64,000 bases of DNA from Persephonella sp. KM09-Lau-8 (GTDB taxonomy: Bacteria > Aquificota > Aquificia > Aquificales > Hydrogenothermaceae). Shown one piece after another: positions 27,719-28,886 of the stretch. The position numbers and the translations under genes are program-made. The notes under the pieces are model-generated. The model saw only the letters and a program-made list of their open reading frames with translations. It did not search any database and had not been told where the DNA came from. Position 1 is the stretch's first letter, and each line of letters starts with the position of its first letter. The stretch covers positions 1,302,001 through 1,366,000 of the forward strand of contig NZ_JNLL01000001.1 of the NCBI RefSeq assembly GCF_000703085.1. Direction: 5' to 3'.

Positions 27719-28384
27719 ATGGAAAGACTTTCCACCGAAGAAAAACAAAAATTAGACAAACAGCTAAAGGAGGTTGCAAAGAGGGTTAATGAAATTTTAG
27801 ATAAATATGGAGAAAAAGCTATTCAGGAAGTTCCTGCAAGGGGAAGAAAACTTGTAGGATATATCCCACAATTTTTAATTGATGCCCTGAATAGCGTAAC
27901 AACAATCTGGGGGTATGACTATAAGCTAATTTCCCTTGAGGAAAAAGAGGTCGTAAGAAAAAGCGGTAACAAAGAAAAGGTTTATCAGGCTACAGTGGAA
28001 GTTTCCCTCTGGATTTTAGACGACAGAATAAGAAAAGTTCAGGTCGGTGGCGGTGAAAATGTAACTCCTGGAGATGCAATTAAAGGAGCTATCACAGATG
28101 CTATAGGAAAATGTCTTTCCCTTTATTCTATTGGCAATAAAGCTTATAGAGGTGAGCTTGAACTTGGAGAGTTTAAATTGTCTGCCCCTGAACCAAGAAC
28201 AACACAACCAACAGAAAAACAGATTGAATATCTGAAAACACTGGCAAAGAAAACACAGGTTGAGTTTCCAAAAATGGCAAAACAGATATTGAACAAGACA
28301 ATAAGAACAGAGAAAGAACTAAAAGAGCTAACAGGTCAGGAAGTAAGCAGATTAATAGAAGCTTACAAAAGAATTGCTGTTTAA
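27719..28384 (+). CDS. Rad52/DdrA-like single-strand annealing protein
   Basis: A 221-residue protein. The core matches the Rad52-superfamily annealing fold: VPARGRKLVGYIPQFLIDAL, then YQATVEVSLWILDD, then GGGENVTPGDAIKGAITDAIGKCLSLYSIG, where the GDAIKGA(I/V)TDA helix is the family hallmark. The C-terminal PTEKQIEYLKTLAKK is a separate helical part seen in many phage annealing proteins. It should bind single-stranded DNA and pair complementary strands in recombinational repair. AAAGGAGG is upstream of ATG. Neighbours are not phage genes and an intrinsic terminator follows, so it is a single-gene unit. Confidence 0.82.
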   Translation: MERLSTEEKQKLDKQLKEVAKRVNEILDKYGEKAIQEVPARGRKLVGYIPQFLIDALNSVTTIWGYDYKLISLEEKEVVRKSGNKEKVYQATVEVSLWILDDRIRKVQVGGGENVTPGDAIKGAITDAIGKCLSLYSIGNKAYRGELELGEFKLSAPEPRTTQPTEKQIEYLKTLAKKTQVEFPKMAKQILNKTIRTEKELKELTGQEVSRLIEAYKRIAV

Positions 28385-28388
28385 GTTG

Positions 28389-28416
28389 CAGGGGCTTTAG
28401 CCCCTGATTTTGTTTT
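28389..28416 (+). terminator. Intrinsic terminator after the Rad52-like gene
   Basis: Stem CAGGGGC / GCCCCTG (28389-28395 and 28400-28406) with a TTTA loop, followed by ATTTTGTTTT. It starts five bases after the stop codon. Confidence 0.9.
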
Positions 28417-28429
28417 ATAATTTTTAGGC

Positions 28430-28740
28430 TCCTACCGGTTGAAAACTCAGTTTTTGTTTACTTTGAGTTCACCTAATTCAAAAAACTGTTTAAACCGGAA
28501 GAAGACGATAAAGTTTTTTATCTTTTAAAACTCCAAAGCCAATTTCCAGTTTGAAGAGAGACGGTTTCTGGGTAAAAACAATTACTATCCAGCCTTAAAT
28601 AGGGACTTGAAATGGTGTATTCCTTACATTGGGACGTATTTAAGTAAAGATAACGCCATTGTCTTAACCGGCCGCAGGGCTCCCATTGCCCCGGGTTTCA
28701 GTTAAGACAATTCCTCTAGCAGCACTCCCATTAAAAAATC
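28430..28740. ncRNA. Candidate structured RNA, unidentified
   Basis: A 310-base stretch without a credible ORF, unusually rich in inverted repeats. Pairs seen: ACCGGTT/AACCGG (28434-28440, 28493-28498) enclosing CAGTTTTTG/CAAAAAACTG (28448-28456, 28479-28488); GATAAA/TTTATC (28507-28522); CTTAAATA/TATTTAAG (around 28594-28643); and a perfect ten-base TTGTCTTAAC/GTTAAGACAA (28659-28668, 28701-28710) around a very GC-rich core (CGGCCGCAGGGC..., 28669-28700). GC-rich islands in an AT-rich thermophile usually mark stable RNA. I could not find RNase P, SRP or tmRNA signature sequences, and could not exclude 6S RNA. A TATAAT at 28416-28421 would suit plus-strand transcription; strand is open. Confidence 0.45.
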
Positions 28741-28813
28741 CTTATTCGCGTTTTTTAGATCTGAATTTTTATTTAATTCTCTTAACCACTACCATTCTAA
28801 ATTCTATAAATGG

Positions 28814-28886
28814 TCGGAGCGAGCGGACTCGAACCGCCGACCTCTGGCCCCCCATGCCAGTGCTCTACCGCCTGAGCTACGCTCCG
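28814..28886 (-). tRNA. tRNA-Pro (GGG)
   Basis: Acceptor CGGAGCG / CGCTCCG (C1-G72 as usual for bacterial tRNA-Pro), anticodon stem CTGGC / GCCAG with loop ATGGGGG (anticodon GGG), T loop TTCGAGT, discriminator A; CCA is encoded (28811-28813). Its first ten bases are also the last codons and stop codon of the HU gene on the same strand. Confidence 0.95.

Follow-up and report, generated by a model that had tools for sequence, protein, structure and literature searches.

The gap between a Rad52-family gene and tRNA-Pro in the window (the whole 64,000-nucleotide stretch of Persephonella DNA analysed here) is probably a composite of three remnants: the relic of an IS200/IS605-type transposon, a hairpin that we call R2, and the stump of a second motif, R1. 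New RNA genes are often assumed where a thermophile has an orphan fold between genes. Comparative anatomy identified much of this orphan fold as a fossil guide-RNA transposon, and the analysis exposed two small structured-element families, R1 and R2, that are apparently undescribed and occur, in more than one genus, in plasmid- and phage-like DNA and at CRISPR borders. One of them, R1, shows strong covariation and an invariant loop–loop contact. The gap (28385-28810) and its neighbors contain the following features:

27719..28384, plus strand: Rad52/Rad22-family gene, left neighbor (PF04098, E 1.2e-5)
28389..28406, plus strand: intrinsic terminator of the Rad52-like gene, followed by ATTTTGTTTT (terminator scan; a similar one in G006 and G013)
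28429..28519, plus strand: left end (LE) of an IS605/TnpB-type element (DNA search against tnpB upstream regions)
28520..28655 (end approximate), plus strand: decayed omega/reRNA (tnpB 3'-end) region (alignment with G001:C38, G001:C16, and full-length copies)
28658..28711, probably minus strand: R2 hairpin with arms ATTGTCTTAAC..GTTAAGACAAT, core TGAAACCCGGGGCAATGGGAGCCCTGCGGCCGGT, and loop AATGGGA (covariance model)
28720..28734, minus strand: stump of the R1 5' end, TAATGGGAGTGCTG (alignment with G001:C38 and R1 copies)
28811..28886, minus strand: tRNA-Pro(GGG), right neighbor

A Composite Insertion beside tRNA-Pro

The initial annotation described 28430-28740 as about 310 bases without a credible gene, and the ORF check found none there. 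It also reported a GC-rich core in an AT-rich genome, which the composition bears out: the window has a GC content of 32.9%, while the hairpin at 28658-28711 reaches 53.7% overall and up to 76.7% over 30 nt, a value equaled within the 64-kb window by tRNA genes only. A GC-rich island in an AT-rich thermophile is a classical mark of structured RNA. The ten-base inverted repeat TTGTCTTAAC/GTTAAGACAA was confirmed and is in fact longer, with 11 perfect base pairs (28658-28668/28701-28711), an arm length reached by 5 of 300 dinucleotide shuffles, with a shuffle mean of 7.5. The flanking terminator was confirmed at 28389-28406 and is that of the Rad52-like gene, which is 99% identical in G001, G006, and G013. 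A TATAAT hexamer is present at about 28416 as reported, but no sigma-70-type promoter candidate passes the scan. The proposal of a single stable RNA fared worse. The fold of the whole 326 nt beats shuffles only modestly (z −2.1 and −2.3 for the two strands, 3 of 100 shuffles each), which does not support a single 310-nt RNA with a stable fold; the stretch is a composite insertion consisting mostly of transposon relic.

The insertion is seen directly in the relatives. In five members of the genus, G002, G005, G009, G010, and G011, the stop codon of the Rad52-like gene lies ~5 nt from tRNA-Pro and the gap is missing; these genomes provide the empty site, the borders of the elements being approximate. 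In G006 and G013, other DNA of 560 bp fills the orthologous gap. Because the relatives either lack the gap or carry different DNA there, we regard it as an insertion hot spot. The 560-bp remnant (G006:C1 and G013:C109; L082, L084) perhaps comes from a minus-strand gene, and the orthologous site in G004 is occupied by 2.6 kb of inserted DNA with a GGDEF-like gene. Divergence between the genome of the window (G000) and that of its sister species, G001, is 9.0% for the whole gap and 8.5% for ordinary intergenic DNA, and thus no constraint is visible on the gap as a whole in this comparison. The hairpin differs by 1 change in 54 nt, which is only suggestive of constraint.

A Relic of a tnpB-Less IS200/IS605-Type Element

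The first remnant is settled in kind: it is a decayed, nonautonomous, PATE-like IS200/IS605-type element, a known kind of element. Its left end (28429-28519) matches the DNA just upstream of an intact tnpB in G006 with 78% identity over 91 nt (E 2.2e-13) and the DNA upstream of an intact tnpB in G001:C17 with 77% identity. This palindromic left end, homologous to those of tnpB-bearing copies, places the element in the PATE class of IS200/IS605-type elements. The protein of the full-length copies is a guided TnpB (NF040570, E 3.7e-65; also PF07282 and PF01385). The window element has no tnpB, and no ORF in the gap, and is not of the autonomous form. A tnpB-less layout, with the left end followed by the scaffold and the right end, is common to two loci of G001, of which C38 is the orthologous locus and C16 a different locus with an intact TAGTTGA end.

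In an alignment of the tnpB-less and full-length copies, the omega/reRNA scaffold forms four helices with 12 of 26 pairs changed on both sides and 93% of the cells paired; none of 500 shuffles was as good, and slid controls gave 35-50%. In the window copy, the alignment covers the first scaffold helices; the two 3' helices (the long-range helix and the terminal hairpin) are missing, as is the end. The right end, a subterminal hairpin with a terminal TAGTTGA, is present in family copies including G001:C16 and absent from the window, and since it is missing we classify the window element as a relic and not as an intact element. No close TnpB was found in G000, the best having 32% identity, and the other TnpB elements of that genome end in a different motif, TAGTTCAC.

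Taken together, an IS200/IS605-type element would have lost tnpB while its left end and a right part resembling an omega/reRNA remained; such an RNA would guide a TnpB nuclease. Given the lost 3' scaffold helices, the lost right end, and the lack of a subfamily TnpB in the genome, the guide-RNA element in the window is probably dead. PATEs have already been described as originating from core-deleted IS200/IS605 elements (PMC3119063). Like these (IS1341-type, TnpB), our element combines a palindromic left end, a deleted tnpB, and a residual right part, and full-length tnpB copies are present in the same genus; unlike PATEs, the nonautonomous layout retains a covarying omega/reRNA scaffold, the window copy having decayed further. 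The roles of TnpB and omega RNA are known, as is the coincidence of the IS200/605 scaffold end with the transposon boundary (PMC10711439). The scaffold found here similarly overlaps the tnpB 3' end, contains several stem-loops, and ends at the right end, whereas the window copy, having lost its last two helices and its TAGTTGA terminus, retains no guide boundary. As to the insertion target, nearly all copies of the tnpB element (L061-L067, L070) lie directly behind a CATAATTTACCTCC-like sequence, and their left ends abut the start codon of a divergent gene, replacing its Shine–Dalgarno sequence; the Shine–Dalgarno region may be the target.

The R2 Hairpin Retains Its Core and Re-Pairs Its Arms

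The R2 covariance model scores 74.4 bits in the window (28708-28661, minus strand). We searched 136 Aquificota genomes with the core pattern TGAAANCCNGGGCAATNGNAGCCCNGCGNCCGGT, allowing up to 3 mismatches and using the reversed pattern as a control. Matches were found in 3 of the 136 genomes only (G000, G001, and G101) and none with the reversed control. The 34-nt core is identical in G001 and G101 (G001:C38 and G101:C177), and the G000 copy differs by one base. In G101:C177, the hairpin lies ~15 nt after the last repeat of a CRISPR array (GTTTTATCTGAACTATATGGGATAGAAAC) and before a degenerate repeat. The arms of the G101 and window copies are unrelated in sequence but complementary within each copy, giving the same fold. 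Among the hairpins built into the model are two related ones from G101, on a small Rep3 plasmid-like contig; no further copies were found with it across the phylum. The sample thus comprises five copies in three genomes, one of which is a draft genome contaminated at about 7%, and with five rows the pair statistics are modest: the number of double-change pairs was matched in 42 and the covariation score in 15 of 500 shuffles. The polarity of wobble pairs leans weakly toward the minus strand. We are moderately confident that R2 is a selected structure, its apical core nearly invariant and its arms variable but re-paired. Two exact matches to a core 18-mer in genome_contigs, in a Rickettsia endosymbiont MAG and in Pseudomonas, were unrelated and judged to be due to chance. 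An integron attC site was rejected by eye, the arms being unlike RYYYAAC/GTTRRRY.

The R1 Motif Shows Strong Covariation

On its own the R1 stump scores 4.6 bits, not above chance, and it is assigned by its alignment with G001, relative to which the rest of R1 is deleted in the window. G001 has an intact R1 of about 90 nt beside R2. The motif is also found in G007, G008, and G015, and the covariance model adds G013, a second locus of G001, and G101. Six distinct rows show two stem domains with 11 of 26 pairs changed on both sides and 95% of the cells paired; none of 500 shuffles was as good, and slid controls gave 31-51%. A 6-bp loop–loop pairing, CCCTGC/GCAGGG (CCCUGC/GCAGGG as RNA), is invariant. 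These patterns argue strongly that R1 is a selected structure.

The R1 copies of G013 (L209) and of the second G001 locus (L216) are identical over about 100-105 nt and have unrelated flanks, which suggests that R1 units travel. R1 and R2 occur together in G001:C38 and G101:C292. A resemblance of R1 to a cobalamin-type box was seen by eye only, and Rfam gives no match. A 14-mer of R1 had 81 matches in viral_contigs, which were uninformative; longer patterns had no match there, nor did BLAST searches of plasmids and phages.

A third hairpin, GC-rich and 65 nt long (GGCAGGTGTCTGAGGGGATATCCCCGCGCTCCTGAATGCTGCAGCATTCTTGTACAGCACCTGCC), is identical in G013:C16 (L209) and G101:C292 (L210), which belong to two genera; the flanking DNA is unrelated, and a TTATATTA box precedes the hairpin. 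Weak R3 matches in G000 and G013 (26 bits, E about 1e-4) and in G001:C21 (20.7 bits) were rejected: they fell in one regulator gene family, and model E-values near 1e-4 are therefore not trustworthy.

Genomic Contexts and Possible Roles of R1 and R2

R1 recurs in DNA of particular kinds in genomes that are, judged by gene content, Hydrogenothermaceae-like (Persephonella-like), several of the relatives being draft genomes. In G007 and G015, CRISPR repeats lie within about 70 nt of it, and in G008:C64 (L123/L206) a frameshifted cas6b, a Cas6b remnant, follows about 75 nt downstream on the same strand. The G013 copy is near a DnaB/Toprim protein and repeated GAACTATTTATACAG-type sequences, the G101 copy has a Rep3 gene nearby, and the copy in G001:C2 lies in a phage-like gene region. 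This recurring link with plasmid and phage DNA and with CRISPR borders suggests a role for R1 and R2 in mobile elements, as a regulatory RNA or as a hairpin of replication or mobility. The most probable roles are those of a small RNA or of a single-stranded DNA hairpin belonging to a mobile element, and selection would have preserved their structure, not their sequence. A more specific proposal is tentative: they could be two new small structured RNA classes, each with a conserved kissing loop or apical core, that Hydrogenothermaceae plasmids and phages carry and that have settled where CRISPR arrays end or in front of cas6, acting there on CRISPR RNA processing or on the control of plasmid replication. 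The initial suggestion of a new class of structured RNA holds insofar as the gap contains an unclassified structured element, R2, whose core recurs in a second genus between arms that have re-paired and which in the sister species has the intact, covarying R1 beside it, but not as one RNA. The annotation had proposed an Rfam search and a comparison of the orthologous gap; the search gave no Rfam name, and in the comparison five relatives lacked the gap.

The closest behavioral parallel, drawn by analogy, comes from Haloquadratum, whose small mobile repeats invade IS605 relics. Like these, R1 and R2 are short, transposase-free, present in multiple dispersed copies, albeit few, and found beside IS605-type relics (PMC3119063). 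Unlike them, R1 and R2 show arm covariation and conserved cores and occur in an unrelated organism; when we looked for inverted terminal repeats, ends of the TTTTAATGG..CCATTAAAA type were found in some R1 copies only, and there were no empty sites. A survey of novel ncRNA candidates in Aquificales likewise sought GC-rich structured candidates in this thermophile order, and its new candidates are from Aquifex aeolicus (PMC4227106).

Alternative Explanations

It is possible that R1 and R2 are features of the DNA with no RNA function, such as transposase-free small mobile palindromes that move as single-stranded hairpins. The identical R1 copies of roughly 100 nt in unrelated flanks (L209 vs. 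L216) are consistent with this, as are the third hairpin shared by two genera, the R1 within a phage-like gene region, the position of R2 next to an IS605 relic, and the precedent of Haloquadratum SMR-A, for which PATEs and IS605-type transposons account for 104 of 192 targeting events (PMC3119063). However, arms that differ yet stay paired and an invariant loop–loop pairing are more than a passive repeat needs, and neither R1 nor R2 has shown a target duplication or an empty site.

R1 and R2 are unlikely to be ordinary terminators or products of end-of-array decay at CRISPR loci. At three loci the last CRISPR repeat is no more than about 70 nt away, and CCTTTTCTT comes after the G101 hairpin; against this, the hairpin in the window lacks a T run and is not called as an intrinsic terminator by the terminator scan, R1 occurs in both orientations relative to the repeats, and both motifs are also found on plasmid- and phage-like contigs without CRISPR. 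We consider it quite improbable that R2 is the native right-end hairpin of the IS605-type element in the window, or an insertion in its loop: by eye, the right-end stem of G001, CTTCCTAA..TTAGTAAG, could enclose R2, but every other family copy ends in a short hairpin and TAGTTGA, and the G101 R2 has no such element nearby. Finally, the stretch is gene-free, GC-rich, and adjoins a tRNA gene, but that it is one divergent known stable RNA (6S, tmRNA, RNase P, or SRP) is hardly tenable when Rfam gives zero matches for the gap on either strand at the gathering score and chance-level matches only in a relaxed search, five relatives lack the gap, and 6S is already refuted.

Neither R1 nor R2 has an Rfam match, and the models for tmRNA, RNase P RNA, and SRP RNA are unmatched, in accordance with the initial failure to recognize their cores. 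The suggested divergent 6S RNA has no RF00013 match, and the 6S RNA gene of G000 lies elsewhere, at C1:233818-233984, above the cut-off of Rfam.

A further observation concerns the R1 copy at L216 (G001:C2). This copy sits inside the phage-like coding region and, by eye, is apparently read through in frame on the opposite strand, which recalls the in-frame palindromic elements of Rickettsia.
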